From Candidatus Polarisedimenticolia bacterium (GTDB taxonomy: Bacteria; Acidobacteriota; Polarisedimenticolia; Gp22-AA2), in assembly GCA_036001465.1 (NCBI GenBank), contig DASYUH010000072.1:1-43517 (forward strand): 43,517 bases of DNA. Direction: 5' to 3'. The notes below the pieces were generated by a model. That model worked only from the letters and a program-made list of their open reading frames with translations. It was not told the DNA's origin and searched no databases. The translations under genes were made by a program, and so were the position numbers. Shown in pieces: positions 6,942 through 34,542 of this stretch; positions within the stretch are counted from its first letter, which is position 1, and each line of letters opens with the position of its first letter.

Positions 6942-7018
6942 AGGCCCGTGCTATGCTCCGCCCCTTCATCGCCGCGCGGCCCCGTCGAGGCCGGCGGGAT
7001 CGGAAAGGAGGGCCTGGC

Positions 7019-12192: not shown

Positions 12193-12223
12193 AGGAGCCG
12201 GCCCCATACTCGGACAGGCTCCT
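12193..12223. repeat. Copy 2 of dispersed repeat, imperfect palindrome
   Basis: AGGAGCC (12193-12199) pairs with GGCTCCT (12217-12223) around a 17-base middle with partial further pairing. The left part plus ACTCGGAC matches 4815-4838. Located between the aminotransferase stop and the MFS gene, so it could also act as a weak terminator. Confidence 0.45.
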
Positions 12224-12243
12224 GAGCGTTCACGGGGGACTCC

Positions 12244-13467: not shown

Positions 13468-13513
13468 AATTCTTGCCAAGATCGCTCCCGGACGCTAACT
13501 TGGTCGGCGTAAG

Positions 13514-16359: not shown

Positions 16360-16437
16360 CCCGCTGCACCTTGCACTGAACGTCCCGTAGTCGTGCGCAC
16401 GAACGCCTGTCTGCTCCAGTCCGTCCGGGGGGAGAAC

Positions 16438-19400
16438 ATGCACTCGCGCCATCCGGTGCTCACGGGGATCCTCCTGTCGGCCTGGGCCTGGATGCCCGTC
16501 GTAGCGCAGCCGGTCTTCCCGGACCCCGTCCTGACGGTGCCGGTCCCCTCGGACGCGGTGGTGGCGGATTTCGACTTGGACGGGCACCTCGACCTGGCGG
16601 CGGCGAGCTTCAGCGACGCGGGAGTCACGGTCTTCCTCGGGCGGGGAGACGGGACCGTGGGCCCGCCACGGATCTTCCCCGCGCTGCCGGGCGCCCTGTC
16701 CCTCACGGCGGCCGACCTCAACCACGACGCGCGGCCCGACCTTCTGATCGTCAGCGACCCGGAGGACGGGAGCCACCCGCCGGAGGTCTCCCTGCTGCTC
16801 GGGAACGGCGACGGCACGTTCGCTGCGGAAGTCGTGCTGCCCGCGGGATTGTTCCAGCGGGCGGTCGCGGTCGCCGACTTCAACGAAGACGGACATCCGG
16901 ATCTGACGATCCTCGACGGGTGCTACGCGGCGGGACCCGGGTGCCCCGAGGAGGGGGGAGCGGTGTCGTTCCTGCCCGGCCACGGCGACGGCACGTTCGG
17001 CGCCGAGACGCGGTATCGCGCCGGGCACGAGCCGCTGGCGATCGTGACGGCCGATTTCGACGCGGACGGGCACCAGGACCTTCTGGTCGCGAACAGCACG
17101 CCGGACGGGGCCGGTGTCCAGGGACCTCTGGCGCTCCTGCGGGGCCGCGGCGACGGCTCGTTCGACGCGGAGGCGCGTGTCGGGGCGCCGTCCGACGTCG
17201 CCCGCCTGGCGGCCGTTGGGGATCTCGACCGCGATGGGCTGCCCGACGTGGCCGCCATCGGGGGAGGGAGCTTCGCCAGGATCTTCCTGAACCGGGGCGG
17301 CGGGACGTTCGTCGAGAGCAGCCTCCCGACGGGGGGATCGACCACCGACCTGGCGATCGGCGACTTCGATCACGACCTCTACACCGATGTCCTGGTCGCG
17401 GGAAGGACGCCGGACAGGATCTCCTTCTTCCCGGGAAACGGCAACGGGACGTTCGGCCTCAGGGTGGTCTCGCTGGCCGGGAACGGCCCCACCTGCCTGG
17501 CGCCGGGCGATCTCGGCGGCGATGGCCGGACCGACCTGGTGGTGTGCCGGGCCTCCGCGGATGCCGTGGCTCTCCTGGCAGGGAACGGGAACGGCACGTT
17601 CGGAGTTCCCGCCCGCCCGCTCGAGTCCCTGGGTCACTGGGAGACCGCCCTGACCGATTTCAATGGGGACGGCCGCCAGGACCTCATCGTGTCGAACGGG
17701 AGCCCAACCTACGATTTGTACGGCGATCTCTCCGTCCTCGACGGCCGCGGCGACGGGACGTTCGGCCCGGAGATCCACATCGCGACGGGACCGGTCCGCG
17801 CGCCCCTGCGCGCGGCGGACTTCAATCTCGACGGGGCGGTCGATCTGGCGGTCGGGAACTGGGACACCAGCGAGATCTCGCTGCTGCTGGGACGCGGGGA
17901 CGGCGGCCACTTTCCGGAGAGGCGCTACGCCATAGGCTTCAATCCGAGCCAGCTGTCCGTGGGGGACCTGGACGGCAACGGCATTCCCGATATCGTGACC
18001 GTGAATCAGGGACGGAACTTCCCGCCCCGCCTCCCGAGGGACGTCTCGGTCCTCCTGGGGAGGGGGGACGGGTCGTTCTTCCCCGAGGTGCGGACCAATG
18101 CCGTCCCCTTCCCGACGATGTCGGTGATCGCCGATTTCAACCGCGATGGACGGGGCGACCTGGCGATCACCAGCGAGGAATCCCAGGTCGACGGTGTCGA
18201 CGGCAAGGTCTACATCCTCCTCGGACGCGGTGACGGCCATTTCGATCCGGGTCCCGTTCTGGAATCCGGCGAAGGGGTGTTCGAGGTGGTCGCGGGCGAT
18301 TTCAATGCCGACGGACATGACGATCTCGCCGCGAACAATCGCGGCGGCCTCGGCGGGGGCGGCTCGCCAGGAGATGTGTCGATCTTCCTCGGCCTCGGGG
18401 ACGGGAGCTTCGCGACCACCCCGCATGTGCCGACCCCCGGCGCCCCCATCTACCTCGCCACCGCCGATTTCGACCTGGACGGCCGTCTCGACCTGGTCGC
18501 CTCCGAGTCGACGGGGGATGCGTCCGTCCTGATGGGGCACGGGGACGGCACCTTCGCTCCTGCGGCGCGCTTCCTGATCAAGGAGGTGCCCGAGGACGTC
18601 GCCGCCGCCGATTTGAACGGCGACGGCGCGCCGGACATCGTGGCGCAGGTCGGCAACTCGATCGTCGTCCTGCTCAATCGCACTCCGATCGACCGGGATC
18701 AAGACGGACTGGAGGACAGGGATGACAATTGTCCCACGGCTCCCAACCCCGGCCAGGAAGACGCCGACCAGGACGGCGTGGGGGACGCGTGCGACGGCTG
18801 CCCGGGCGTGCCCGATCCGTACCAGGAAGATTCCGATCGGGACGGGATCGGGGACGCCTGCGATTCCTGCGTCGATCGGGACGGCGACGGCGCCGGCGAT
18901 CCGGGATACCCGGGGAACACCTGCCCGACCGACAACTGTCCGCAGGCGGCGAACCCGTCGCAGACCGATTCGGATGGCGACGGGCCGGGCGACGCCTGCG
19001 ACGACTGCCCGCTGGCGTTCAACCCTTCGCAGGCGGACGCCGACCACGACGGAACGGGGGACACCTGTGATGCCTGCACCGACCGCGACCTGGACGGCTT
19101 CGGCGACCCGGGGTTCCCGGCGAGCCTCTGCGCCCCGGACAACTGTCCGGCCGCGGCCAATCCCGCGCAGGAGGACGCCGACGGCGACGGGCTGGGGGAT
19201 CTCTGCGACGCCTGCACCGACCGGGACGGCGACGGCGTCGGCGATCCCGGCCGCCCCCTCGACACCTGCGGAATCGACAACTGTCCCGCCACGGCCAATC
19301 CGGACCAGGCGGACGGCAACCGGGATGGCTCCGGCGACGCCTGCCAGCCGACCCTCGTTCTCGCGGGCGTCCGCGAGGACGGAGGCGAGACGCTCGAGGT

Positions 19401-21063
19401 CGACCTGCGCGTCTCGGATCCGCAGGGGGACCCGCTGGGCGGCCGGATCGAGATCCTCGCGACACCGAAGGAGATCCGGATCGAGGACCAAGGGCTCGAC
19501 GCCGCCTGCGCGTCCGGATTCCTCCCGGACGGCGTTCCGGGCCGGGGCATCGGCTACCTGTTCCGCTCCGTGGGCTCGCCGATCCTCTTCGACCTGGATG
19601 CCGCTCTCCAGTGCGGCGACGGCTTCGGAGACTTCCTCCTCGGCCTCGGGAGGTGCAGCCAGCCCGGGGTGTTCACCCCGATCCTCTTCATTGCCGATCT
19701 ACCGCTTCCACTCTCGGTCTGCCTTCGCACATCGAGCGCGGCGACGGGCGGGTTCGACCTGACCGTGCTCGAGCTCGATGAGGACAGCGTCCGTTTCGCC
19801 GTGGAGGACCCCGAGCCGATCCTCCTGGTCCCCTTCGGGCCGGGGTTGCCCGCGGCCGTCGATATCTCCACTCTCGTCCCGGGGACCCGCTACCGGCTTG
19901 CCGTCACTGTCACGGACGGCACGACGGTGCCGGTTTCGGCGGAAACGGAATTCCTGTTCCAGGCGGAATCGCGCATGGTGTTCCCGTCCCCGAACGCTCC
20001 GCCGGTGGCCGCGATTGCGGCGCCGGCCCTGGTCGAGTGCGACGGGCCGGCCGGATCCACGATCTTACTCGACGGCACCGGGTCGACCGACCCCGATCTC
20101 CCGGCTGGTGCGGGGGGCATCTCCACCTATCAATGGGTCGAGGACCCCGGCCTGCCGTCCGAGATTGCGCTCGGGACCGGCCCCACGCTGAGTCTCGTCC
20201 TGGCGCTCGGGGCCCACTCGATTGGACTGAGGGTCACCGATTCGGAAGGGGCGGTCGGCACGGCGCAGACGGTCGTCCTGGTGCGCGACAGCCTTCCGCC
20301 GACGCTCACGCTGGCGGTCGACATCGACGTCCTGTGGCCGCCGAACCACCGGCTCGTCTCCGTGCGCCCGGCCTGGCAGGTGAGCGACCGCTGCGACCCG
20401 TCGGCCACGGCACGCCTCGTGTCGGTGACCGCGAGCGAGCCGGACGACGCGCCCGGGGATGGAGACGGCAGGACCACGGGGGACATCGCCGGGGCGGAGG
20501 CGGGGACGCCGGACGCCGAGATCCTCCTGCGCGCCGAGCGATCGGGGAGCGGATCGGGCCGGACCTACGACATCACCTTCACGGCCACGGATGCCGCGGG
20601 GAACTCGAGATCGGCGCTGGCGATCGTCAGGGTGCCGCACGACCTGGGGGAGGGGCCCGAGCCGCTGCAGGTCGGCGTCGAGCCGGCCGCGACTCAGGAG
20701 ACGGCCCGCCTCTACTGGAACGCGGTGGCAGGGGCGCTGGGGTACGACCTGATCTCGGGAGACGTCGGGAGCCTCGAGGTGGACGGCGGACGGATCACGC
20801 TCGGCGCGGTGCGCGTCCTGGCGCGGCTGACGACGGCGACCTCGTGGGCGGAGATCTCCGGGTCGACCGGCAGCGTCGCCGTCGCGACGCCTGATCGCGG
20901 CAAGGCCTTCTTCTATCTCGTCCAGTACCGCGATGGTCACGGGTCGAGCGGCTACGGCACCGAGTCTGTGCCGCTGCCGAGCGAGCCGGCGTCGTGCTCC
21001 GGGGGCTGCCCCGGCGAGGACAGCCTTTCGATCGGATCGGGGGCCGACCCACGGCGCCGGTAG
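16438..21063 (+). CDS. Giant secreted VCBS/FG-GAP, thrombospondin-3 and PKD protein
   Basis: 1541 aa from ATG 16438, with GGGGGGAG six bases upstream. Residues 1-22 form a signal peptide ending near V-V-A-Q. Residues 35-750 hold about 14 VCBS/FG-GAP units, each with D-F-N/D-x-D-G-x-x-D-L and G-R-G-D-G-T-F, i.e. a calcium-binding beta-propeller array. Residues 751-970 hold about ten thrombospondin type 3 calcium loops (D-x-D-x-D-G-x-G-D-x-C-D) with D-N-C-P spacers. Residues 1185-1285 look like a PKD domain, 1285-1400 like a HYR-type domain with L-W-P-P-N-H-R-L, and the last 135 residues like a fibronectin III-type domain. No enzymatic domain or sorting signal is visible. It probably works at the cell surface in adhesion or binding. 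Confidence 0.85.
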   Translation: MHSRHPVLTGILLSAWAWMPVVAQPVFPDPVLTVPVPSDAVVADFDLDGHLDLAAASFSDAGVTVFLGRGDGTVGPPRIFPALPGALSLTAADLNHDARPDLLIVSDPEDGSHPPEVSLLLGNGDGTFAAEVVLPAGLFQRAVAVADFNEDGHPDLTILDGCYAAGPGCPEEGGAVSFLPGHGDGTFGAETRYRAGHEPLAIVTADFDADGHQDLLVANSTPDGAGVQGPLALLRGRGDGSFDAEARVGAPSDVARLAAVGDLDRDGLPDVAAIGGGSFARIFLNRGGGTFVESSLPTGGSTTDLAIGDFDHDLYTDVLVAGRTPDRISFFPGNGNGTFGLRVVSLAGNGPTCLAPGDLGGDGRTDLVVCRASADAVALLAGNGNGTFGVPARPLESLGHWETALTDFNGDGRQDLIVSNGSPTYDLYGDLSVLDGRGDGTFGPEIHIATGPVRAPLRAADFNLDGAVDLAVGNWDTSEISLLLGRGDGGHFPERRYAIGFNPSQLSVGDLDGNGIPDIVTVNQGRNFPPRLPRDVSVLLGRGDGSFFPEVRTNAVPFPTMSVIADFNRDGRGDLAITSEESQVDGVDGKVYILLGRGDGHFDPGPVLESGEGVFEVVAGDFNADGHDDLAANNRGGLGGGGSPGDVSIFLGLGDGSFATTPHVPTPGAPIYLATADFDLDGRLDLVASESTGDASVLMGHGDGTFAPAARFLIKEVPEDVAAADLNGDGAPDIVAQVGNSIVVLLNRTPIDRDQDGLEDRDDNCPTAPNPGQEDADQDGVGDACDGCPGVPDPYQEDSDRDGIGDACDSCVDRDGDGAGDPGYPGNTCPTDNCPQAANPSQTDSDGDGPGDACDDCPLAFNPSQADADHDGTGDTCDACTDRDLDGFGDPGFPASLCAPDNCPAAANPAQEDADGDGLGDLCDACTDRDGDGVGDPGRPLDTCGIDNCPATANPDQADGNRDGSGDACQPTLVLAGVREDGGETLEVDLRVSDPQGDPLGGRIEILATPKEIRIEDQGLDAACASGFLPDGVPGRGIGYLFRSVGSPILFDLDAALQCGDGFGDFLLGLGRCSQPGVFTPILFIADLPLPLSVCLRTSSAATGGFDLTVLELDEDSVRFAVEDPEPILLVPFGPGLPAAVDISTLVPGTRYRLAVTVTDGTTVPVSAETEFLFQAESRMVFPSPNAPPVAAIAAPALVECDGPAGSTILLDGTGSTDPDLPAGAGGISTYQWVEDPGLPSEIALGTGPTLSLVLALGAHSIGLRVTDSEGAVGTAQTVVLVRDSLPPTLTLAVDIDVLWPPNHRLVSVRPAWQVSDRCDPSATARLVSVTASEPDDAPGDGDGRTTGDIAGAEAGTPDAEILLRAERSGSGSGRTYDITFTATDAAGNSRSALAIVRVPHDLGEGPEPLQVGVEPAATQETARLYWNAVAGALGYDLISGDVGSLEVDGGRITLGAVRVLARLTTATSWAEISGSTGSVAVATPDRGKAFFYLVQYRDGHGSSGYGTESVPLPSEPASCSGGCPGEDSLSIGSGADPRRR
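16540..18690 (+). repeat. Array of VCBS/FG-GAP coding repeats
   Basis: About 14 units of 111 to 180 bases recur inside the giant gene. Each ends in a short DNA core like GGCGACGGGACGTTC and its variants. Protein conservation is higher than DNA identity, so the array is old. Confidence 0.75.
18691..19350 (+). repeat. Array of thrombospondin type 3 coding repeats
   Basis: About ten Asp-rich calcium-loop units, with Cys residues spaced for disulfides, lie between the VCBS array and the PKD part of the same gene. Confidence 0.7.
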
Positions 21064-21451: not shown

Positions 21452-24400
21452 GTGCTCGAAGGCCAGCGCATCGGATCGGTGGACAGGACGGGACTGATGG
21501 CCATCGGCCACCGGGTCGAGAAGGGTGTCGCCACGCTGACCCTCGCGCGCCCGTCCGCCCGGAACGCCCTCACCCTGGAGATGATCGAGGCGCTGCACGC
21601 CGAGCTCGATCGGATCGAGGGGGACCCATCGGTCCGGATGGTGGTCCTGAGGGGAGAAGGGGACCATTTCTGCGCCGGCGCCGACATCAAGGAGCTCCTG
21701 CGCTCGATCGAGGCCGGGACGCCCCAGGCCGACCACTTCCTGGCGCGCGAGTACGCCCTGGACCTGCGTCTGGCGAAGCTGGCGGTGCCGCTCGTCGTCG
21801 TCGCGGACGGCGTCACGATGGGCGGGGGGCTCGGGCTGGCGTTCGGCGGCTACCTGGTCGCGACACCCCGGACCCGGTTCGCCATGCCGGAGTCGCGCAT
21901 CGGCTTCCTGCCCGACATCGGGGCCACGTACGAGCTGAAGCGGCGGCTCGGTCCCGCCCTGGCTCGCTACTTCTTCTGGACCGCCGACTCGTTCACCGGC
22001 GAAGAGGCCCTGCGCTGGGGCTTCGCCGAGGCCCTGGTGGCTCCCGAGGACATCGACGCGCTGCTCGAATCGCTGGGCCGTGCGGCCCGCGGCGAGAACG
22101 GCAAGCGGGTCAACGGATCGGCCGGTGCCGTCTTCCTGCACGCGCGCATCGCCGGCGGAGTCCCGGCCCGGCAGGGCCGCTGGACCCAGCGTCCGGCCCG
22201 GACGGCGGACGACGCGCGGGTCCGTTTCGCCCGCCGTCACTTCGAACGAACCGCCCCGCCCGACGTTCGGGCGTCCCTGGAGCGCGCCGCCAGGGGGGCC
22301 GACGACACCCTGGAGCGCGACTGGGCGCGGGAGACCCTGGCCCAGGTCGCACGGCGCAGCCCGGCGTCCATCTGGGCCTGCGACCTGCTCCTGCAGCTGG
22401 ACTATGAGGCGATGGCCCGCGAGGCCGCGGAAGGCTCGCCGTCCGGCCGGGAGCGGCTGGGCTACCTGCGCGACGCGCTCGGCCGGTCCGAGGTCGAGGC
22501 GGCGTGGCTGGCGGACGAGTTCCGGTCGATGCCGCGCGGCCTCGCCCTGGCGTGCGAGTACCTGTTCGCCACGGCCCTGTTCCGCCACCCCGACTTCGCC
22601 GAGGGGGCCCGGGCGTTCCGGGAGAAGCGCGAGCCGGAGTTCCCGTCGGCGGGAGAGCCTCTCGGGATCCACCGGGCGCTCTTCCGGGAGCGCGCCGGCT
22701 GGGCCCTGCTGCGCCACGCGGCCCGCCTGGCGCGCGACGCGTTCTGGATCGAGATCGCCCGTCAGGAGCTCGACTGGATGAAGCCGCCGCGGCAGGGGCA
22801 TGACGACACGGCCTTCCCGTGCGTGCGCTGGTTCGGGGACGGCACGCTGAACGCCAGCGCCGAGGCGCTCGATCGCTGGGTGGAGCGCGGCCGCGGCGCG
22901 CAGCCCGCGTTCATCTGGGAGGGGGACCGCATCGACTCGGAGCGCCGGCCACTCGAGCAGCGGACGATCAGCTACGGCGGGCTTCTGCGCGAGGTGCAGC
23001 GCTGCGCCGCCGCCCTGCGGGCCCTCGGCCTGCGCAAGGGGGACAGCCTCGTCCTCTACATGCCGAACACCATCGAGACCTACGCCGTGCAGCTCGCGGC
23101 GGCGCGCATCGGCGCGGTCTACCACCCGGTCTTCGCCGGCTTCGCCCGTCAGGAGCTGAGCGACCGGCTGCACCTGATGGGGGCACGCGTCCTCGTCACC
23201 GTCGACGGCGCCTTCCGCAAGGGGGAGGTCGTCCAGTACAAGCGCGACTACGTCGATCCGGCCCTGCGGGATTTCGTGCCGGTCGATCGGGCGGCCGCGC
23301 TGGCCGGCGCGGCCCTGGCGCGCCATGGCGCCGATCCGGACGGCGCCGTCCTGGCCCGGTTCCGCGAGGTCCTGGCCGACACGATCACGGTCGAGAAGAG
23401 CAAGGCGCGCGCCCTCCTGGCCCGGGAGCTCCTGGCGCGCCAGGCGTCCGCTGCCGGCCCGAGGCATGGCGAGGGCGAACCGGCAGGCGACGCCCTGCCG
23501 GCGGCGATCGACGCCGCGAAGGCCGGCGCGGATCTCGAGGCCCTGCTCCTCTCCGGCGGTGCGGGCGACGCGGCGGCCCCGAGGTTCATCGAACGTCTCG
23601 ACCGGGCGGCGGCCCGTCTCGATCGGCAGGCGGCGATCGAGTCGGGGGAGATCCTCGCGGAGGAGGAGGCCCTTCCGTCCCGACTTCAGTCGGCCCTGCG
23701 CGAGTTCGCGGCCGGTCTCGAACAGGTCCCGAGCGCGGTCCGCACGGTCGTGGTCCTGCGCGGTCTCGAGACCCGGAACGAGGCGGACTGGGTCGCCGGG
23801 CGCGACCTCTCCTACGAGGAATTCCTGGAGCGCGCCGGCGCCGCCTCCTCCCAGGCCGAGCCGATGGGCGCCGAGGACCCGCTGTTCGTGATGTTCACCT
23901 CCGGAAGCACCGGCAAGCCGAAGGGGGTAGTCCATACGCACGGCGGCTACCTGGCGCGGCTGCCGTTCCTGCTGCGCGTCCTGTTCGGCCTGGGCCGCGA
24001 TCAGCGGATCCTGACCGTCGCGGACCCGGGCTGGATCACCGGGCAGTCGTTCGCCTGCTGGGGGCCCCTGACCTACGGCATGACCAGCGTCCTGGCGGGA
24101 TTCGTCCCGGTCGAAGACCGGTTGTGGTCGGCCATCGAGCGGTATCGCGTCCACTTCCTTAAAACCGGCGTGACCGGCATCCGCGCCTCGATGGGGGACG
24201 ACCCCGGGCACATCCGCGCGCACGACCTGTCGAGCCTGCGGCACCGAAGCGGCGACGCGACGCTGGCCGCCCTGCGGAACGAGATCGAACGGCACGGTCG
24301 GGGCCTGCAGCCCGGCCACGCCGGCAGCCGCCGGCGGGTCGCCCTCGCGAGCCTGTCTCGGGGTGTCATCGACGCCCATCAGTCCCTCTGGAAAGGGAAT

Positions 24401-27400
24401 CCCGCCGACTGGCCGGCGATCTTCGAGGAGGCGATCGCCCGGGCGGAAGCCCGGCCGGTCGAGGATCTCCTCGACCCACTCCGGGATCGGGTGCGCGATC
24501 TCGCCCGCGACGCGGCGCGCGAGGAGCGGCGGTACACCTCCTGCTCCTGCGCCGAGCCGCTCGACGCCGCCGTGCAGGCCTGGTGGGAGGCGCACATCGG
24601 CCCGATGCAGAACTGCTGGTGGCGCACCGAGGACGGCGGCCCGGAGACCGGGGCCGACCCCGCCGCGTTCGCGCAGTCGCCCGACGCCTCGGCGCGCCCC
24701 CTTCCGTGGGCCGACCTCGGCGTGTTCGTGATCCGCGACGACGACGGGAACCCGGTTCCGCCGCGGCCGGCGGAGCCGGGCGAGAAGGGGACCGTCTTCG
24801 TGCGCCACAACCCCGGCATCGCCCGCGGGACCTGGGCCCGGCCGGCGGACGGCCCCGGCGGAGGCGGCGACTGGCGCGCCGATCCCCGCTTCCGTGAGAT
24901 CTACCACGCCGACGTGCCCGGCTGGCACAACACCGGCGACGCGGCGGTCGCGAGGCCGGACGGCGCCCTGACCTTTCTCGGCCGGGACGACGAGGTCCTG
25001 AACGTCAGCGGCCACCGCGTCGGCACGCAGGAGATCGAAGGGGCCGTGCGCGCGCACGCGGCGGTGGCCAACGTGGCCGCCATCGGCATCCCGGCGGAGA
25101 TCAAAGGGGACAACCCGGTCCTGTTCGTCACGCTGCGCGCGGGACAGCACGCCACGGGCCTGCTCGACAACCAGCTGCGCGAGGCGGTGTCCGAGGCCAA
25201 GGGGAGCCACGTGGCGCCGTCCAGCGATTTCATCTTCTATGTGCCCGGTCTGCCGACCACCAAGAGCGGCAAGATCCTGCGTCGCTTCCTGAAGTACGCC
25301 GCCGCTCTCGACCGCGACCTGCTGGGGTCGATCCTGGGTCGCCTGCGGGACGAGCGCCTGCGACAGGGGCTCGCCGCGGGGGACCGTGAGACGCTCCAGG
25401 CCCTGTTCCCGCCGCTCCTGCGGCAGGGACGGACGATGCACCTGGGAAGCGTCGCCACCGTCGACCGGATGGGGGTCCTGATCGACGTCCTCCTGTCGGT
25501 GGCCAGGCGGCGCGAGCTGGACGTGGACGACATCGCGGCGGCCGGCAGGCTCGACGTCGCGGCCCCCGCGCCGGCACAGGACGCCGCGGCCGGCGGCGAG
25601 TCGCCCGCCTGCAGGCCGTTCGAGGCAGCCCCCGGGGAGATCTACGCCCTCGGCCGGACCGACTTCAGGCCCGGCGTCGATCCGCTGCCGCTCGCCCAGG
25701 AGGCCTGGGCGATGGTGCGCGACGCCCACGGCCGGCCGGTGCACGGCGAGCCGAAGGAGGCTCTCCGGCTGGTCGTCGAGCCGGCGCCGCGCGATCCGGA
25801 GCCGAACGAGGTCATCGTCCAGAACCTGTTCGGAGGCTCGACGCACAACGTCCTGCACGCGCTTCTGGCCGACCCGACCTCGCCGTTCGAGTGGCACCGT
25901 CAGCCCTACCACGTGCTCGGCAGCGGCGCCGTCTGCCGCGTCGTGCTGTGCGGGCGGGAGGTCGAGCGGCAGGGGCTGTTCTCCCCCGGACAGCTGGCGA
26001 TCACCTTCCCCGCGACCTACCGGGCGCTCGATCCGAAGGTCTCGGAGGACGCCATGCACGCCGGCTTCGAGATTCAGGGGTTCGAGACGCCCGGGGGGAC
26101 CCTGCGCCCGTTCGACCGCCTGCAGGCGACGCAGCTCCTGCCGGTGCCGAAGGGGCTGACGCTCGAGCAGGCGGCGTCGTTCATGCTGAACCTGGTCACC
26201 GTCTATCGCGCGCTGACCCGCAAGCTCCAGCTGCATCCCGGCCAGAGGCTTTTGGTCGAAGGGGCGACCGGCGGCACCGGGGCGCACGCCGTCGACATCG
26301 GGACGATGCTCGGGGCGCGCGTCACCGGCATCGTCGGCAGTCCCGCCCGCGGCCGGCAGGCTCTCGAGGCGGGGGCCTCGGGGTTCCTCGACCGCAACGA
26401 GGCACGGGTGAAGGATCTCTGGAAACCGGTCCCGGACGACCCGACCGGCTGGAGCGACTGGGAGCGGAGCGGGACGCCTCTGCTGGAGGCGCTCCGTGCC
26501 GCCAACGACGGGGCGCTGGCCGACGCCGTCGTATCGTTCACCGGCCGGGACGCGTTCGGTCGCCTGGTCCAGATGCTCGCTCCGGGCGGCCGCCTCGTCT
26601 TCTTCGGCGCCTTCGGCGGCTACTGCCTGCGGTTCCTCGGCAAGGGGCAGGACCGGCCGGATTTCCCGAGCGGCGCCTCGAGTCCGGTCTCGACCACGCC
26701 GCCGGGGGAGATGCTCGAGCGCGCCGGCCTCAGGCCGGGGATGGGGGTCCTGGTCCACTACGGCGCCGGAGCGGCCGCGCCGATCGCCCGTGCGACGGCG
26801 GCCCGGGTCGAGGACCCGCTCGGTCTCGCGGCGATCCAGGCGGCGCTCGATCGGAAGGCGCGCGTCGTCGCCCTGACCCACAGCGACGCGCAGAGCGCCT
26901 TCATCCACCACGAGCCCTCGGTCGGCCCGCGCCTGCTCGGAACGATCAGCCTGGAGTCGCTGCGGCGCGGATCGCGGTTCGAGTGGCCGGACCGGATGCC
27001 CGACTCCGATCGCGACCGGAAGCGCTACGAGCACTATGAGACGTTCACCCTGAAGCCCCTGGCGACCGCGGTCGGTCGTCTGCTGCGCTCCCCCGGAGAG
27101 ACGCGCGGCCAGCCGGACCTGGTCGTGGCGCGCGGATCCGAGGACACGCTGGCGGCCGACCTGTTCATGGTGCGGCCGTTCACCGGGGCCGTGGTGTACG
27201 CCGAGTCGTGCGCCCGCGCCTACACCCTGTACGCCCCGCAGGTCTGGATGCGCCAGCGGCGGATCCTCTTTCCGACCTTCGAGATCCTCGGCACCCACAT
27301 GGGAAACCCGCAGCAGGGACGCGAGGTGATCGACTGGATTGGCCAGGGGCTCCTGCCGCTCCGCCCGCCGCGGGTGGTCGAGGCACGCGAAGCCCCGGCG

Positions 27401-28540
27401 GCGTTTCAGGCCATGCACGAGAACGCGGCGGGCGGTCCCTTCGTCGTCCACCTGACGGCCCCCGGCCGGGGCCTGACGACGGAGCGCGAGATCGACGAGA
27501 GGAACGGGGCGATCTTCTTCGACGAGAAGTACGTCACCGTTCGCCTCGACGCCCTGCCGGGCCGGCCGGAGCACCTGGCGCGCGTCACCCTGCGCGGCGA
27601 GGCCGGCAGGCCGCCGACTCTGGCGCGCGACGCGGTCTACCAGATCGGCGACGCCTTCCGTCGCCTGGCGGGGGACCGCCGCGTCTGCGCGGTCGTCCTG
27701 ACGGGAGAGGGGAGCGTCGCCTTCCTGGCCGGCCAGGACCTGCGGCAGCTCTACGACGAGGTGCAGGACGCCGGCGCGGCCCTCACCATCGCCCGGGACG
27801 CCCAGCGCATCTTCGATGCGATCGAGTCGTTCCCGCGACCGGTCATCGCGGTCGTCAACGGCGTCGCCCTCGGCGGGGGCCACGAGCTGCTCTCCTGCGC
27901 CCACTACCGCATCGCGGTGCGCTCGTCTCGCGTCCGCGTCGGGCAGCCGGAGATCGAGCTCGGCATCATCCCCGGGTTCGCGGGCACGCAGCGCCTGACG
28001 CGCCTCCTCATCGACCGTCTCGGGATCGAGCGCGGACTCGGGGGGGCCCTGGAGATGATCCTGAACGGCCGGCACTACGACGTCGACGAGGCCCGCGCCC
28101 TCGGGCTCTTCGAGGAGGTGGTCGAGGGGAACGCCCTGCAGCGCGCCTGCGCCCTGGCCGGCGAGCACGCGCGCGGCGCGGATCGTCCGCTGGCCGCGGC
28201 CCGCGAGGGGCGGCTGCGCGCGCGCCAGGCGTGGCGGCGTCCGGTGGATCTCCCGGACCAGCTCCTCGATGGGGACGTGCGGCTGCGGCATCTCTTGAAG
28301 CAGGCGCTCGATCCGGGCATCGGTCGCGGCGTGCCCGCGGTGCGCGCCGTCGAGGCGGTCCTGCATGGATTGCGGCATGGGTTCGAGGCGGGATGCGACA
28401 GGGAAGCGCGCCTGTTCGCGTCCCTCGTCGTGGATGAGCGGCACGGCAGGCGGGGCATCAGGAGGTTCCTGGATCGCCGGGAGCCGGCCCCCCTGCCGCC
28501 GCCGCGGCCGCGAACGCTCTCAGCCGACGAGGGGAGGTGA
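21452..28540 (+). CDS. pcs: Propionyl-CoA synthase-like megaenzyme: HIBCH-ACS-ECR-ECH fusion
   Basis: 2362 codons from GTG 21452 (GAGGTG five bases upstream; ATG 21497 is an alternative). Domain 1 (residues 15-410) is a full 3-hydroxyisobutyryl-CoA hydrolase-like crotonase with M-G-G-G-x-G-L, Glu147 in A-M-P-E and Asp155 in L-P-D-I-G, ending in D-F-A-E-G-A-R-A-F. Domain 2 (455-1290) is an AMP-forming acyl-CoA synthetase with T-S-G-S-T-G-K-P-K-G (816-825) and the thioester-step Lys1274 in S-G-K-I-L-R-R. Domain 3 (about 1430-2010) is an acrylyl-CoA reductase of the MDR type, with E-G-A-T-G-G-T-G at about 1602. Domain 4 (about 2030-2362) is an enoyl-CoA hydratase with Glu2145 and Glu2167. It would turn 3-hydroxypropionate, ATP, CoA and NADPH into propionyl-CoA. 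The canonical protein (about 1820 aa) has synthetase, hydratase, reductase in that order. Confidence 0.85.
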   Translation: MLEGQRIGSVDRTGLMAIGHRVEKGVATLTLARPSARNALTLEMIEALHAELDRIEGDPSVRMVVLRGEGDHFCAGADIKELLRSIEAGTPQADHFLAREYALDLRLAKLAVPLVVVADGVTMGGGLGLAFGGYLVATPRTRFAMPESRIGFLPDIGATYELKRRLGPALARYFFWTADSFTGEEALRWGFAEALVAPEDIDALLESLGRAARGENGKRVNGSAGAVFLHARIAGGVPARQGRWTQRPARTADDARVRFARRHFERTAPPDVRASLERAARGADDTLERDWARETLAQVARRSPASIWACDLLLQLDYEAMAREAAEGSPSGRERLGYLRDALGRSEVEAAWLADEFRSMPRGLALACEYLFATALFRHPDFAEGARAFREKREPEFPSAGEPLGIHRALFRERAGWALLRHAARLARDAFWIEIARQELDWMKPPRQGHDDTAFPCVRWFGDGTLNASAEALDRWVERGRGAQPAFIWEGDRIDSERRPLEQRTISYGGLLREVQRCAAALRALGLRKGDSLVLYMPNTIETYAVQLAAARIGAVYHPVFAGFARQELSDRLHLMGARVLVTVDGAFRKGEVVQYKRDYVDPALRDFVPVDRAAALAGAALARHGADPDGAVLARFREVLADTITVEKSKARALLARELLARQASAAGPRHGEGEPAGDALPAAIDAAKAGADLEALLLSGGAGDAAAPRFIERLDRAAARLDRQAAIESGEILAEEEALPSRLQSALREFAAGLEQVPSAVRTVVVLRGLETRNEADWVAGRDLSYEEFLERAGAASSQAEPMGAEDPLFVMFTSGSTGKPKGVVHTHGGYLARLPFLLRVLFGLGRDQRILTVADPGWITGQSFACWGPLTYGMTSVLAGFVPVEDRLWSAIERYRVHFLKTGVTGIRASMGDDPGHIRAHDLSSLRHRSGDATLAALRNEIERHGRGLQPGHAGSRRRVALASLSRGVIDAHQSLWKGNPADWPAIFEEAIARAEARPVEDLLDPLRDRVRDLARDAAREERRYTSCSCAEPLDAAVQAWWEAHIGPMQNCWWRTEDGGPETGADPAAFAQSPDASARPLPWADLGVFVIRDDDGNPVPPRPAEPGEKGTVFVRHNPGIARGTWARPADGPGGGGDWRADPRFREIYHADVPGWHNTGDAAVARPDGALTFLGRDDEVLNVSGHRVGTQEIEGAVRAHAAVANVAAIGIPAEIKGDNPVLFVTLRAGQHATGLLDNQLREAVSEAKGSHVAPSSDFIFYVPGLPTTKSGKILRRFLKYAAALDRDLLGSILGRLRDERLRQGLAAGDRETLQALFPPLLRQGRTMHLGSVATVDRMGVLIDVLLSVARRRELDVDDIAAAGRLDVAAPAPAQDAAAGGESPACRPFEAAPGEIYALGRTDFRPGVDPLPLAQEAWAMVRDAHGRPVHGEPKEALRLVVEPAPRDPEPNEVIVQNLFGGSTHNVLHALLADPTSPFEWHRQPYHVLGSGAVCRVVLCGREVERQGLFSPGQLAITFPATYRALDPKVSEDAMHAGFEIQGFETPGGTLRPFDRLQATQLLPVPKGLTLEQAASFMLNLVTVYRALTRKLQLHPGQRLLVEGATGGTGAHAVDIGTMLGARVTGIVGSPARGRQALEAGASGFLDRNEARVKDLWKPVPDDPTGWSDWERSGTPLLEALRAANDGALADAVVSFTGRDAFGRLVQMLAPGGRLVFFGAFGGYCLRFLGKGQDRPDFPSGASSPVSTTPPGEMLERAGLRPGMGVLVHYGAGAAAPIARATAARVEDPLGLAAIQAALDRKARVVALTHSDAQSAFIHHEPSVGPRLLGTISLESLRRGSRFEWPDRMPDSDRDRKRYEHYETFTLKPLATAVGRLLRSPGETRGQPDLVVARGSEDTLAADLFMVRPFTGAVVYAESCARAYTLYAPQVWMRQRRILFPTFEILGTHMGNPQQGREVIDWIGQGLLPLRPPRVVEAREAPAAFQAMHENAAGGPFVVHLTAPGRGLTTEREIDERNGAIFFDEKYVTVRLDALPGRPEHLARVTLRGEAGRPPTLARDAVYQIGDAFRRLAGDRRVCAVVLTGEGSVAFLAGQDLRQLYDEVQDAGAALTIARDAQRIFDAIESFPRPVIAVVNGVALGGGHELLSCAHYRIAVRSSRVRVGQPEIELGIIPGFAGTQRLTRLLIDRLGIERGLGGALEMILNGRHYDVDEARALGLFEEVVEGNALQRACALAGEHARGADRPLAAAREGRLRARQAWRRPVDLPDQLLDGDVRLRHLLKQALDPGIGRGVPAVRAVEAVLHGLRHGFEAGCDREARLFASLVVDERHGRRGIRRFLDRREPAPLPPPRPRTLSADEGR

Positions 28541-28611
28541 CGGACGTGTCGCCGTGGACGGAGGGGCGCCAGGAGATCGAAGGCAAGGCGAAGCAGGAAG
28601 GAGGCGGCGCC

Positions 28612-31600
28612 ATGCCACCCGGGTCCTTCCAGATGTTCGACCCGGACCAGTTCCGGGACAAGGTGGTCCTGGTCACGGGGGCCGGCAAGGGGACCGGCCC
28701 GGGCGGCATCGGCTACAACGCCGCCATGGCCTTCGCGCGCGCCGGGGCGCGGCTGGCCATCGTCGGGCGCACCGGCGAGACCGTGCGCGCGACGCGGTGC
28801 GAGATCGAGGCCCTCGGAGGCGAGGTGGTCGAGGCGATCGGGGACGTCAGCGATCCGGCCGTGATCGCGGGCCTGTTCGACGCCGTCGCGACGCGCTTCG
28901 GCCGGCTCGACATCCTCATCAACAACGCCGGCGTCTCGGGGGAGGTGCGCGCGCTCGTGCGCATCCCGGCGAAGAGCTTCCGCTACGCCTTCAACGTCCA
29001 CCTGCACACCATGACCACGACGCGACTGGCGGCGCGGCTCATGCGCGACAGGGGGATCCAGGGGACCATCCTGAACATCGGCACCTACTTCACGTCTCCG
29101 CACCGGCAGATCCTGCGTCCCTACCCGTTCCGCACGCCGTACACCGGCGCGCAGGCCTGGAAGCTCGAGCACGCGCGCGTCAGCGCCTGGGAGCTGGCGC
29201 GCGAGGGCATCCGCGTCATCGCCCTGAACCTGGGGCCGGTCGAAGGGGGCCGCATCGATTCGATCGTCTACCCCCTGGGGGCGCTCGAGCGCGGTCTGTG
29301 GGGCCGCGACGTCCGCGGGGACGACATCCGCCGCAAGACGGAGGAGATGCATCCCGCCCGGCGCTTCCTGACCCAGGACGACGCGGCCCGCTCGATCCTG
29401 GCGCTCGCTTCGCGGGAGCTGCGCGACTCGGCGAACGGCACGGTCGTCGAGCTGGCGGGCGGCGTGGACTACAAGGTCCCGCCGCAGGCGGCCCCGCCGT
29501 TCCTGGGCGGCCGCCTGCCCGACCTCGAGGGGCGCCAGGTCCTTCTGATCGGACATCCGTCCGAGGAGCAGGCGGCGACCCTGGTCCTCGCCTTCGCCGC
29601 GTGCGGAGCGGCCGTGGTCCTGGCCGCGCCCGACGCCTCGCGCATCCTGTCGAGCCTGGCCGCAGGCAGGGCCCCGCTGGAGTACACCGACGGGCAGCGC
29701 ACCCTCCTCGGCAGGGTGCAGGCCATCGATCTGAAGACGGACGACGACGCCGCGGTCGCCTCCCTGTTCGACCGGCTGACGACTCCCGCGGACGCGCCTC
29801 AGGACGGCTCGGTCCCCCCGCCGGCCGGCGCGGAGCGCGCGGCCCCCGGCCTGGACGTCGTGGTGGCCCTGACCGGGGACATCGTGTCCCCTGGAGCGTT
29901 CGCCGATTTGACCCGGGAAGAGGAGGACGCGCTCAAGGAGCGCTTCGCCTTCGAGCCGGCGGAGATCCTGCGCTGCGCCCAGGCGGCGATGCTGCTTCGG
30001 GGCATGCGCCGCGCGGCCGAGGAACGGGCCGCGGGCGCGCGGTCGAGTGGCGCGACGGGGGCCGCGGCGGCGGACGAGCGGTTCCTCTCGTTCCGCCCGT
30101 TCCTGGCGCTGCTCGAGCGGCCGCGGGGCGTCGCGTCGAGGACCGGCATCCAGCGGGTCAAGGGGGGGTGGACGCCCGACGAAGAGAAGACGCTCCAGGC
30201 CGGGGCGCGCCAGTCGCAGGGAAGCATCATCCTCGTGGGTCCGCGGCTGGCCCGCGCGGCGGCCGACGACGCTTCGGTGGTCGGCGTGCTGCGCGCCGGC
30301 CTCCAGGCGGTCGTGACCTCCACCGCCACGGAGATGGCCAGCGCCCGAAGCCCGATCCGGGTGAACGCCATCTTCCCCGGCAGCGACGCGGGCGACGCCT
30401 CGGCCTCCCGCGCGGCGCGGACGGCTCTCCACCTCGCCGCCGACAGCCGCGCCTCCATCGCCGGAATGATCTACTTCCCCGACGAACGAAACGCCGGTGT
30501 CGCGGACGAGGGCGCCCTGGCCGGCCGGACCGCGGTCGTCACAGGCGGCGGGCGCAACCTCGGGCAGGCGATCGCCATGCGGCTGGCGCGCGAGGGCGCG
30601 CGCGTCGTCGTGGCAGGGCGCGGGCGCGCCGATCTCGACCTGACGGCGCGCGCCATCACGGCGCTCGGCGGCCGCGCCCACGCGGTGGCGGCCGACATCG
30701 CCTTCCCGGGAGAGCGCGCCCGGATTCTCGAGGCGGCGCGCGAGGCTTCGGGCGAGGCCGGGCGCGGCATCGACCTGTGGGTGAACAATGCCGGGATCGG
30801 CGGCGCGTTCGCCACCCTGGGGGAGATCGAGCTCGACGGCGACGCGCGCTGGCACCAGACGCTCGCGGTGAACTTCGCGGGCGCCTGGCTCGGCATGGTG
30901 CGGGCGATCCTCGACATGCGCCGGCGCGGCGCTCGCGGCGGCGTGGTCAACGTCAGCACCTTCTACGCCGACCAGCCGTACGTCTTCCGCATACCATACA
31001 CGGTTCCGAAGATCCTGCTCCGCAGGACCGCGGCGCTCCTGGCCGACGCCCTCAGGCCGTACGGCCTGTTCGTCGCCGACATCGAGCCCAGCCTCATCGA
31101 CGGGCCGCGGTTCCAGTGGGTGGCGCGCAACTACGCCGAGCAGTTCAAGCGGCACGGCGCCGCGGACCCGCTGGCCGACCCCGCCGTGAAGGCGTGGTTC
31201 GAGCGCCTCATCCCGGTGCAGGCGCCGCAGGCGCGGGACGTCGCGCAGGCGGTCCTGTTCGCCGCCCAGAGAGGGTTGACCGGGACCGGGCAGGAGATCG
31301 CCGTCTCGACCCTGCCGCGCGCGCCGCGCGCCTCGGCCACGCGGGGATCGGGGCCGCGCCACCCGGGGCGCACGGTCGTCATCGTCACCACGGCGCGCGA
31401 CACCGCGGAGATCGATCGGGTCGGATCGATCGCCGCCTGGTGCCTGGAGTCCGGATCGCGACGGGTGATCGTGGCCGGCGACGACGGCATGATGGCGCGG
31501 CTCGGGCGGCGCCTGTCCCGCGGCGCCTCCGACTCGTCCTGGTGGAACCTGCCGGTCGCTCCCGAGGCCGACGGCCGCCTGGAGATCCGCGGCATCGACT

Positions 31601-32049
31601 CGCTGTCGGCCGCCGCGATGGCCGACGTGTTCGCCGGGCTCGATCGCGTCGACGCGGTGTTCCACGTGCCCGCCGATCCGGGGGCGGCGGAGAGGTTCGT
31701 CCTGTTCCCCGCGGACCCGTCGCTCACCGGCCTCGGTCCCGAGGAGATCGAGGCGCGCTACCGCGATCACCAGCGCGCCCTGTCGCTGTTCCTCGATCGC
31801 CAGGTGACCACCGGGCTCATCGTCGCGCGCCAGGCGGCGCGCTCGCTCGCGCCGGGCGGTTTCTTCATGGTGTCGCGCCGGCGCCCGCGCACCGCGGAGA
31901 CGATCCTGGCCACCGAAGCGCAGCGCCAGATCGTGCGCACCGCGGCGGAGGAGTTCCGCCTGCTCGGCATCGACGCGCACGCGACCTTCACGCACGGCGT
32001 CCCGGCTCTCAGCGCGCGTCTCGCCGCGTTCCAGGCGGCCTCGGCATAA
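28612..32049 (+). CDS. mcr: Malonyl-CoA reductase-like bifunctional double SDR protein, halves swapped
   Basis: 1145 aa from ATG 28612, with AAGGAGG eight bases before it; GTG 28537, overlapping the pcs stop, would add 25 residues. Two SDR modules, each followed by an SDR-like cap, fit malonyl-CoA reductase (about 1220 aa in Chloroflexus). That enzyme reduces malonyl-CoA to malonate semialdehyde and then to 3-hydroxypropionate with NADPH. Module 1 (residues 16-about 635) has an unusual Gly-rich loop from Thr22, N-I-G-T at Thr158, P-Y-P-F-R-T-P-Y (Tyr177) and G-P-V-E-G, matching the C-terminal CoA-acylating half. Module 2 (636-1145) has Thr644, S782 in N-V-S-T, Tyr796 and Lys800 in R-I-P-Y-T-V-P-K, matching the N-terminal alcohol-dehydrogenase half. 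In module 1 the usual Lys at Tyr+4 is Gln181. The order is therefore inverted relative to Chloroflexus. Its product feeds the upstream pcs. Confidence 0.8.
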   Translation: MPPGSFQMFDPDQFRDKVVLVTGAGKGTGPGGIGYNAAMAFARAGARLAIVGRTGETVRATRCEIEALGGEVVEAIGDVSDPAVIAGLFDAVATRFGRLDILINNAGVSGEVRALVRIPAKSFRYAFNVHLHTMTTTRLAARLMRDRGIQGTILNIGTYFTSPHRQILRPYPFRTPYTGAQAWKLEHARVSAWELAREGIRVIALNLGPVEGGRIDSIVYPLGALERGLWGRDVRGDDIRRKTEEMHPARRFLTQDDAARSILALASRELRDSANGTVVELAGGVDYKVPPQAAPPFLGGRLPDLEGRQVLLIGHPSEEQAATLVLAFAACGAAVVLAAPDASRILSSLAAGRAPLEYTDGQRTLLGRVQAIDLKTDDDAAVASLFDRLTTPADAPQDGSVPPPAGAERAAPGLDVVVALTGDIVSPGAFADLTREEEDALKERFAFEPAEILRCAQAAMLLRGMRRAAEERAAGARSSGATGAAAADERFLSFRPFLALLERPRGVASRTGIQRVKGGWTPDEEKTLQAGARQSQGSIILVGPRLARAAADDASVVGVLRAGLQAVVTSTATEMASARSPIRVNAIFPGSDAGDASASRAARTALHLAADSRASIAGMIYFPDERNAGVADEGALAGRTAVVTGGGRNLGQAIAMRLAREGARVVVAGRGRADLDLTARAITALGGRAHAVAADIAFPGERARILEAAREASGEAGRGIDLWVNNAGIGGAFATLGEIELDGDARWHQTLAVNFAGAWLGMVRAILDMRRRGARGGVVNVSTFYADQPYVFRIPYTVPKILLRRTAALLADALRPYGLFVADIEPSLIDGPRFQWVARNYAEQFKRHGAADPLADPAVKAWFERLIPVQAPQARDVAQAVLFAAQRGLTGTGQEIAVSTLPRAPRASATRGSGPRHPGRTVVIVTTARDTAEIDRVGSIAAWCLESGSRRVIVAGDDGMMARLGRRLSRGASDSSWWNLPVAPEADGRLEIRGIDSLSAAAMADVFAGLDRVDAVFHVPADPGAAERFVLFPADPSLTGLGPEEIEARYRDHQRALSLFLDRQVTTGLIVARQAARSLAPGGFFMVSRRRPRTAETILATEAQRQIVRTAAEEFRLLGIDAHATFTHGVPALSARLAAFQAASA

Positions 32050-32570: not shown

Positions 32571-32714
32571 CCCGCCTACCGCCCACGGACGACGCGCAGC
32601 GCCACGTCCTTTCGGGCCTCCCTCATCACTCCGGCGCCGGCTCCCGACAGCCGGCGCCGGAATTCGTTTATGATAGGCGCCCCGACGCGGCGCTGCGGGG
32701 TGGCGGATGGACTC

Positions 32715-33509
32715 ATGAAGAGCCTGGTCCTGATCAAGCAGGTCCCGAACACCGACTCTCCCTTCCGGATCAACAGCGCCGGAACGTGGGTGGACGAGGG
32801 GAACCTCACGTTCGGGCTCAACGATTACGACCGGTACGCGCTCGAAGCGCTCCTGCGCTTCAAGGACACGGGCAAGGTCACCGAAGTCGTGGCCCTGACC
32901 GCCGGCCCGGAGCGCGCCTCGGCGGCGCTGCGCACCTGCCTCGCCACCGGGGCCGACCGCGCGATCCACATCAAGGATGACGCTCTGAACGCCGCCGACC
33001 CCCTGTCGATCGCCCGCGCCATCGTGGCGGCCATCAAGGACGAAGGATTCTCGCTGATCCTGGCGGGGCTGCAGGCCGACGACGACAACTACATGATGAT
33101 CGGTCCGTTCGTGGCGCGCCTCCTCGAACGTCCATGCGCCACGGCGGCGATGCGTCTCGAGCTTGTCGACGGGGGGACGGCGCGCGCCGAGCGGGAGCTC
33201 GAGAACAACCGCGTGCAGGTCGTCGACCTGACCCTGCCCGCGGTCATCACCGTGCAGACCGGGATCAACGAGCCGCGCTACGCCAGCCTCAAGGGGATCA
33301 TGGCCGCCAAGAAGAAGGAGATCAGGACGGTCACGCTCGCCGATCTCAAGCTGGACCCGGCCGCGATCGCCGCGTCGGCGGCCCGCTTCAAGACGGTCCG
33401 CCTGGCGCCGCCTCCCAAGGGGAAGGGGGCCGAGATCCTCTCCGGCGCGGCCGATCGTGTCGCGCAGGAGCTCGTGAAGCGCATCCGCGAGAAGACGGGG
33501 GTCATCTGA
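32715..33509 (+). CDS. etfB: Electron transfer flavoprotein beta subunit
   Basis: 264 aa from ATG 32715, chosen because the family begins M-K-x-L-V-L-I-K-Q-V-P-N-T; a frame start at 32670 would add an unrelated 15 residues. Conserved landmarks: N-D-Y-D-R-Y-A-L-E-A-L, A-L-R-T-C-L-A-T-G-A-D-R, L-A-G-L-Q-A-D-D, and the signature V-T-V-Q-T-G-I-N-E-P-R-Y-A-S-L-K-G-I-M-A-A-K-K-K near residues 178-205. It carries AMP or FAD in the EtfAB heterodimer, taking electrons from acyl-CoA dehydrogenases and passing them on to the quinone pool. Separated by 37 bases from etfA. Its position right after the pcs-mcr unit points to acyl-CoA redox chemistry. Confidence 0.9.
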   Translation: MKSLVLIKQVPNTDSPFRINSAGTWVDEGNLTFGLNDYDRYALEALLRFKDTGKVTEVVALTAGPERASAALRTCLATGADRAIHIKDDALNAADPLSIARAIVAAIKDEGFSLILAGLQADDDNYMMIGPFVARLLERPCATAAMRLELVDGGTARAERELENNRVQVVDLTLPAVITVQTGINEPRYASLKGIMAAKKKEIRTVTLADLKLDPAAIAASAARFKTVRLAPPPKGKGAEILSGAADRVAQELVKRIREKTGVI

Positions 33510-33546: not shown

Positions 33547-34542
33547 GTGGCTTGCCGGATCCTGATCCTGGCCGAGCACGAGGGGGGCGCGGTCCGCGAG
33601 ACCACGTTCGAGCTCCTCGCTCTGGCCCACCGCCTGGCGGGGGAGGGGGGCGGCGGCCCGGCCGACGTCAAGGCGCTCCTCATCGGACACGGCATCGGCG
33701 ACCTGGCGAAGGGGCTGGCGGCCCGCGGCGCGGCCGAGGTCATCTACGCCGAAGGGGAGGCCGTCAAGGATTACACCGGCGACGGCTACGGCCGCATCCT
33801 CGAGTCGGTGATCAAGGTGGAGTCGCCGGACATCGTCCTCGCCAGCCACACCCCGAACGGCTGGGACTGCGCGCCGCTCGCCGCGGCCGGCATCGGCGTG
33901 CCGATCGCCACGGAATGCTCCCAGGTCGCCTTCGAGGGGGGCCGGCCTCTGTTCACGCGCAAGGCGTTCAACGGCAAGTTCATCCAGGTCCTGGATCTCG
34001 GAGACGCGAAGCCGAGGATGGCCACGGTGCAGAAAGGGGCCGTCGCCGCGTTCACGGGGACGACCCAGGGGACCGTGCGCACCATCTCCGCCGGAGTGGA
34101 CGCCGCCGGGCTGCGCGCCCGCTTCGCCGGCATCAAGAAGAGCGAGGCCGGCGGCGTCGACCTGACGCAGGCACAGGTGATCGTCTCCGGCGGCCGCGGC
34201 GTCGGCGCCCCCGAGAAGTTCGGCGTCATCAAGGAGCTCGCCGCCGCCCTCGGCGGCCAGGTCGGCGCCTCGCGCCCGGTCACCGACATGGGCTGGCTGC
34301 CGCACGAGCACCAGGTCGGCAGCTCCGGCGTCACCGTCAATCCGAAGCTCTACATCGCCTGCGGCATCTCGGGGGCCATCCAGCACATCGTCGGGATGAA
34401 GGGGGCCGGCTACATCATCGCCATCAACAAGGACCCCGACGCCCCGATCTTCGGCGTCGCGAGCGTCGGAGTGGTCGGCGACCTGTTCGAGATCGTCCCC
34501 GCCCTGACCAAGGCCGTCAAGGACGCGAAGGGGCAGTCGTAG
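33547..34542 (+). CDS. etfA: Electron transfer flavoprotein alpha subunit
   Basis: 331 aa. GTG 33547 is the first possible start because an in-frame TGA lies directly before it. The N-terminal domain is A-C-R-I-L-I-L-A-E-H; the C-terminal FAD-binding domain shows V-S-G-G-R-G-V-G (about residue 215), S-R-P-V-T-D-M-G-W-L-P-H-E-H-Q-V-G-S-S-G and V-N-P-K-L-Y-I-A-C-G-I-S-G-A-I-Q-H. This is a complete, typical EtfA. It forms the heterodimer with the upstream EtfB. Its last 26 bases overlap the end of the convergent HNH gene. Confidence 0.9.
   Translation: MACRILILAEHEGGAVRETTFELLALAHRLAGEGGGGPADVKALLIGHGIGDLAKGLAARGAAEVIYAEGEAVKDYTGDGYGRILESVIKVESPDIVLASHTPNGWDCAPLAAAGIGVPIATECSQVAFEGGRPLFTRKAFNGKFIQVLDLGDAKPRMATVQKGAVAAFTGTTQGTVRTISAGVDAAGLRARFAGIKKSEAGGVDLTQAQVIVSGGRGVGAPEKFGVIKELAAALGGQVGASRPVTDMGWLPHEHQVGSSGVTVNPKLYIACGISGAIQHIVGMKGAGYIIAINKDPDAPIFGVASVGVVGDLFEIVPALTKAVKDAKGQS

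Follow-up and report, generated by a model that had tools for sequence, protein, structure and literature searches.

A propionyl-CoA synthase-like protein with exchanged reductase and hydratase domains and a fused HIBCH-type domain in an uncultured soil acidobacterium

Propionyl-CoA synthase (PCS), found in nature, is a textbook case of an enzyme that keeps a toxic intermediate inside a closed reaction chamber. The Pcs of Chloroflexus aurantiacus, part of the 3-hydroxypropionate bi-cycle, runs in the order acyl-CoA synthetase (ACS), enoyl-CoA hydratase (ECH) and enoyl-CoA reductase (ER). This order also holds in every other fused or split PCS that we compared: the Erythrobacter sp. NAP1 enzyme (PDB 6EQO), taken as the sole representative of Pseudomonadota, three haloarchaeal plasmid proteins and the PCS of Chloracidobacterium. 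The haloarchaeal proteins (Natribaculum L048, Natrinema L050 and Natronococcus L051) are homologous three-domain chains of 1811–1817 aa. The Chloracidobacterium enzyme (L042–L047 and L010) consists of two proteins cut inside ECH, one with ACS and the N-terminal half of ECH and the other with the C-terminal half of ECH and ER, and their genes lie more than 100 kb apart. The pairs L042/L043, L044/L045 and L046/L047, together with L010, represent a natural trans-split of a chamber enzyme, and these genomes also encode a malonyl-CoA reductase (MCR) of ~1220 aa in the canonical arrangement (L075–L077). On a Haladaptatus plasmid (L049), a PCS-type ER is encoded by a gene of its own, and next to it are individual genes of the enoyl-CoA hydratase and acetate-CoA ligase families. 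A review describes PCS activity as separate enzymes or as a single three-domain chain, and in no other form (PMC10176485). Among the openly readable papers searched, which do not include the original PCS papers, no other order of a fused PCS is described.

The gene studied here lies in a window of 43,517 nucleotides, the whole stretch analysed, from the 4.58-Mb genome of an uncultured soil acidobacterium (phylum Acidobacteriota; labelled G000). It occupies 21452–28540 on the forward strand, begins with GTG and is free of internal stop codons over 2362 aa; the genes described downstream of it are on the same strand. From N to C terminus, the protein is composed of a 3-hydroxyisobutyryl-CoA hydrolase (HIBCH)-type crotonase domain (residues ~15–415), ACS (~416–1282), a 111-aa linker, ER (1394–2016) and ECH (2020–2353). 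Pfam places ECH_2 at 27–310 (3e-81), ACAS_N at 428–471, AMP-binding at 761–1127, AMP-binding_C at 1194–1274, ADH_zinc_N at 1608–1722 and ECH_1 in two C-terminal stretches; ADH_zinc_N_2 at 1930–1998 stays below threshold (23.8 against 27 bits). The top PDB sequence match is 6EQO, with a total E of 5e-249. ACS is collinear with it (query 445–1282 to chain 96–845), while ER aligns with the C-terminal ER of the chain (1230–1837) and ECH with its middle ECH (885–1212). Because 6EQO runs ACS–ECH–ER, the ER and ECH domains are swapped in the 2362-aa protein. All three PCS-type domains are thus on one polypeptide, in the order ACS–ER–ECH in place of the canonical one. The order synthetase, reductase, hydratase proposed by the initial annotation is borne out by this alignment and by Pfam. 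As 6EQO, the three haloarchaeal proteins and the split Chloracidobacterium enzyme are all of canonical order, the sequences compared include no standard PCS subtype with the permuted one. The three chemistries are already known; the permuted arrangement is absent from the openly readable papers searched. The four-domain order that the annotation named among its checks is confirmed, including an N-terminal HIBCH-type domain that it had left uninterpreted.

The annotation had suggested a search of other genomes, and the same order recurs in relatives. A full-length homologue (L009, 2377 aa, 69% identity) belongs to a different genus within the family, whose genome was assembled independently. 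In G145 the same chain of domains is spread over two contigs, and in G287 the ECH tail was found. Of eight genomes searched within the family, four have the gene, as do four of 41 in the class. Incomplete assemblies explain its absence from the other family members partly and not wholly, as G161, which lacks the gene, is 99% complete. Across the phylum, 7 of 396 genomes gave a match, and the other three are Chloracidobacterium, with canonical order. Between G000 and L009, dN/dS is lowest in ECH (0.29) and ER (0.31), followed by ACS (0.39), the HIBCH domain (0.47) and the linker (0.50). Purifying selection acts on all four domains, and the range of 0.29–0.50 indicates that every domain, as well as the new junction, is maintained.

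The individual domains retain most hallmarks of PCS. ACS (22697–25297; assigned by Pfam and the 6EQO alignment) contains the PCS-specific insertion DYVDPALRDFVPVD...TVEK, which Acs and PrpE lack. Its motifs include ADPGWITGQS, the P-loop TSGSTGKPKG at 816–825 and the A10 lysine, K1274, in TKSGKILRR. A further insertion of ~95 aa after LSSLR (24245–24532) is present in G000 and L009 and missing from G145 and from canonical PCS and Acs; it evolves fast (dN/dS 0.79). The linker between ACS and ER (25298–25630) is 64% identical between G000 and L009, and its ACS-side end is conserved within the family. ER (25631–27499), an acrylyl-CoA reductase of PCS type outside its canonical place, is 41% identical to residues 1230–1837 of 6EQO and scores 393.8 bits against that ER, while Ccr reaches just 102 bits, in agreement with the annotation of residues 1430–2010 as a Pcs-type reductase. 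Its PCS-specific extension of ~130 aa has no counterpart in the portion of Ccr that could be aligned, and the Rossmann segment GATGGTGAH is kept. The motif N(F/Y)ND(I/V)W is lost, however. All canonical-group ERs aligned keep NFNDIW and Haladaptatus has NYNDVW; the permuted protein reads THNVLH, with the second Asn alone retained and followed by Val at the counterpart of Asp1302 in 6EQO. A Val at this position could hint at a carboxylating ER, an idea we considered and do not argue. ECH (27509–28510) has an intact crotonase Glu pair (E2145 and E2167, equivalent to E1007 and E1027 in 6EQO) and a C-terminal extension that ends in GI(R/Q)xF(L/M)D(R/K)...PLP, common to PCSs. The motifs APQVWMRQRR, FTGAVVY and HGFEAG quoted by the annotation are found in the protein; its description of the hydratase as in the exact style of canonical Pcs goes too far, since ECH identity to canonical PCS is 35–39%. 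Compared to 6EQO, then, the protein shares three homologous catalytic domains, the PCS-specific insertions in ACS and ER, the ECH extension and the catalytic residues of ACS (P-loop and A10 Lys) and ECH (two Glu), but differs in its exchanged ER and ECH, long ACS–ER linker, additional HIBCH-type domain, ~95-aa ACS insertion and lost NFNDIW motif.

These features, together with the tight linkage to an MCR-like gene described below, argue that the 2362-aa protein is a deeply divergent, permuted PCS that converts 3-hydroxypropionate to propionyl-CoA, with an HIBCH-type domain fused in front, a reading to which we give a probability of roughly 0.74. ACS would convert 3-hydroxypropionate, ATP and CoA to 3-hydroxypropionyl-CoA, the C-terminal ECH would dehydrate this to acrylyl-CoA, and ER would reduce acrylyl-CoA with NADPH to propionyl-CoA. 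We infer 3-hydroxypropionate as the substrate, and the active sites would still open into one common chamber. The 111-aa linker takes the place of the shorter canonical ACS–ECH connection and could seat ER and ECH in their usual positions. AlphaFold2 modeling of ER–ECH, from an alignment of just three sequences, gave a pLDDT of 43.6. A natural PCS with another connectivity offers a test of what the chamber requires, a given order of the chain or domain packing alone, and this question bears on the design of synthetic CO2-fixation enzymes.

How the two orders arose is a separate matter. Common ancestry of ACS, ER and ECH with the parts of canonical PCS is clear from their sequences. The permuted family shares 35–42% identity per domain with canonical PCSs, which are mostly 50–62% identical among themselves. 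It is sister to all canonical-order PCSs in trees of ER (rooted with Ccr), ACS (outgroup Acs and PrpE) and ECH (outgroup other crotonases), built on few canonical sequences, with Chloroflexota missing and with modest support at some deep nodes (75 for ER). The initial annotation spoke of domain shuffling: the changed order is real, but a rearranged ancestor was presumed, and the trees equally allow a swap in either lineage, permuted or canonical, or two separate fusions of one set of modules. By the last route, separate PCS-type enzymes would have been fused twice, as ACS–ECH–ER and as (HIBCH–)ACS–ER–ECH, with the same chemistry and without any domain having moved. We regard this as a serious contender, at somewhat below even odds. 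The outside position of the permuted family in all three trees fits it, as do the stand-alone ER of Haladaptatus, the two-gene PCS of Chloracidobacterium and the statement of a review that the activity may reside in individual enzymes or in a single chain (PMC10176485). Against it, the PCS-specific insertions and the same tree topology are common to all three domains, which implies that the three parts had co-adapted before the split, and the trees themselves carry the limits of sampling and support given above.

Alternatively, the chain may activate and reduce another 3-hydroxyacid, such as 3-hydroxyisobutyrate, or accept a broader range of substrates. The identity of 35–42% in every domain means that the substrate could have shifted, the change of the ER motif to THNVLH that its preference may have drifted, and the N-terminal HIBCH-type domain would suit such a substrate. 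We nevertheless consider this unlikely, since the derived features of ACS, ER and ECH are those of the 3-hydroxypropionate-specific PCS rather than of other families, and an MCR-like gene adjoins the PCS gene in four genomes. In G000, this neighbour (28537–32049) overlaps the PCS gene by 4 bp and encodes a bi-SDR protein of 1170 aa, whose best solved relatives are the Chloroflexus and Roseiflexus MCRs (8hjw and 8hi4). It resembles these bifunctional enzymes in its paired SDR domains, similar length and SDR1 residues, and differs in having the active-site signatures in opposite halves. The C part (residues 658–1170) has the SDR1 signature VSTFYADQPYVFRIPYTVPK and, with exact spacing, all five residues that SDR1 of Roseiflexus MCR needs, Thr165, Tyr172, Arg175, Tyr178 and Lys182 (PMC10470521). 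The N part (residues 31–657) has the longer SDR3-type loop, PYPFRTPY, with an incomplete version of the set Ser731–Tyr743–Arg746–Tyr749–Lys753: Tyr, Arg and Tyr are kept, Ser is replaced by Thr and Lys753 by Gln in all four relatives. Lys753 is essential in Roseiflexus MCR (PMC10470521), and the Gln therefore makes malonyl-CoA reduction by the neighbour uncertain and gives the alternative substrate a further point in its favor.

The halves of the MCR-like neighbour may likewise be exchanged. We keep this as a lead because only active-site loop length and residues support it. Fragments of Chloroflexus MCR show a reciprocal pattern that fits exchanged halves (75 against 60 and 70 against 52 bits), but full Chloracidobacterium MCRs do not reproduce it for the C part (31 against 52 bits), and the SDR tree leaves the halves unplaced at 44–53% support. 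Assignment of the halves by overall SDR similarity was dropped for these reasons. AlphaFold2 on the N part, with two sequences only, gave a pLDDT of 43–44, and a plasmid search with the MCR-like protein returned no match.

The N-terminal domain (21494–22696; Pfam ECH_2) has its best PDB matches in 4hdt and 3bpt, both 3-hydroxyisobutyryl-CoA hydrolases. As in these enzymes, it is a crotonase-family domain with the HIBCH motif MPExxIGFxPDxG, including the Glu and Asp pair (Glu147 and Asp155), and it reads GGGLG, without the Glu, at the site of the first catalytic Glu of hydratases. Unlike these hydrolases, it is fused to a PCS, and its hydrolase activity is predicted. Neither 6EQO nor the haloarchaeal enzymes have this domain. 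The domain is conserved in L009 and partly deleted in G145, where the copy (L039; G145:C216) shows an in-frame loss of ~60 aa that includes the oxyanion-hole segment and leaves the Glu/Asp motif in place. This loss may be a real deletion or an assembly error; unless it is the latter, it favors a non-catalytic role, at least there. The fusion raises the question of editing or scaffold. Hydrolytic editing of wrong or stalled 3-hydroxyacyl-CoA esters would be one role and a structural lid another. Activity would mean hydrolysis of 3-hydroxypropionyl-CoA with loss of the ATP spent, a futile outcome unless it serves editing; if inactive, the domain may act as a scaffold.

HIBCH acts on 3-hydroxypropionyl-CoA in known routes of propionate oxidation, which lends some weight to an oxidative or detoxifying direction. 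ECH would then hydrate acrylyl-CoA, HIBCH would hydrolyse 3-hydroxypropionyl-CoA and the neighbouring SDR would oxidise 3-hydroxypropionate, with ETF serving acyl-CoA oxidation. Genes for ETF beta (32670–33509) and ETF alpha (33547–34542) are encoded a short way downstream, and relatives have such genes too, with an ETF-beta-like ORF likewise downstream in L009 and L041. We think this direction very improbable: a chain that joins an ATP-dependent ACS to an enoyl reductase of NADPH type points to reduction, the cluster yielded no acyl-CoA dehydrogenase, and the G145 HIBCH domain is without its oxyanion-hole segment. That an assembly or gene-calling error joined neighbouring genes, for which nothing but the unusual length speaks, is ruled out by the same continuous order in L009 and on the two G145 contigs, together with purifying selection across the junctions.

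Combining the permuted PCS with these observations on its neighbour and N-terminal domain yields a more ambitious picture, which we put forward tentatively and with some doubt. The locus could encode a second chamber architecture, where the swapped ER and ECH still enclose acrylyl-CoA, the HIBCH domain is an editing valve and the halves of the neighbouring malonyl-CoA reductase are exchanged as well.

With the permuted PCS reading, a 3-hydroxypropionate route in uncultured soil Acidobacteriota is probable; we do not claim a full autotrophic bi-cycle. Such a route could go unnoticed in searches built around canonical Pcs. Methylmalonyl-CoA mutase and carboxyltransferases are encoded elsewhere in the host genome, consistent with their carrying propionyl-CoA to succinyl-CoA. 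The genome also has one HpcH-family gene and isocitrate lyase. Overall, the initial annotation's interpretation is supported.

Other genes of the window are of separate interest. Positions 16393–21063, beside the PCS–MCR pair, encode large proteins that have FG-GAP repeats and thrombospondin-type segments, and at L009 proteins of this type flank the pair on both sides (3–764 and 12221–14545). A long ORF at 4884–8083 combines a molybdopterin oxidoreductase-like frame with a following MauG-type di-haem cytochrome c peroxidase domain. Positions 401–2614 contain a small Cys-rich ORF (CAGANSCKGHGEC...CAGKNECKGKG). After it come a bufferin maturase of MNIO type, which scores above the cut-off of NF050167, and an HvfC-like gene; together they are a predicted bufferin-type RiPP cluster.
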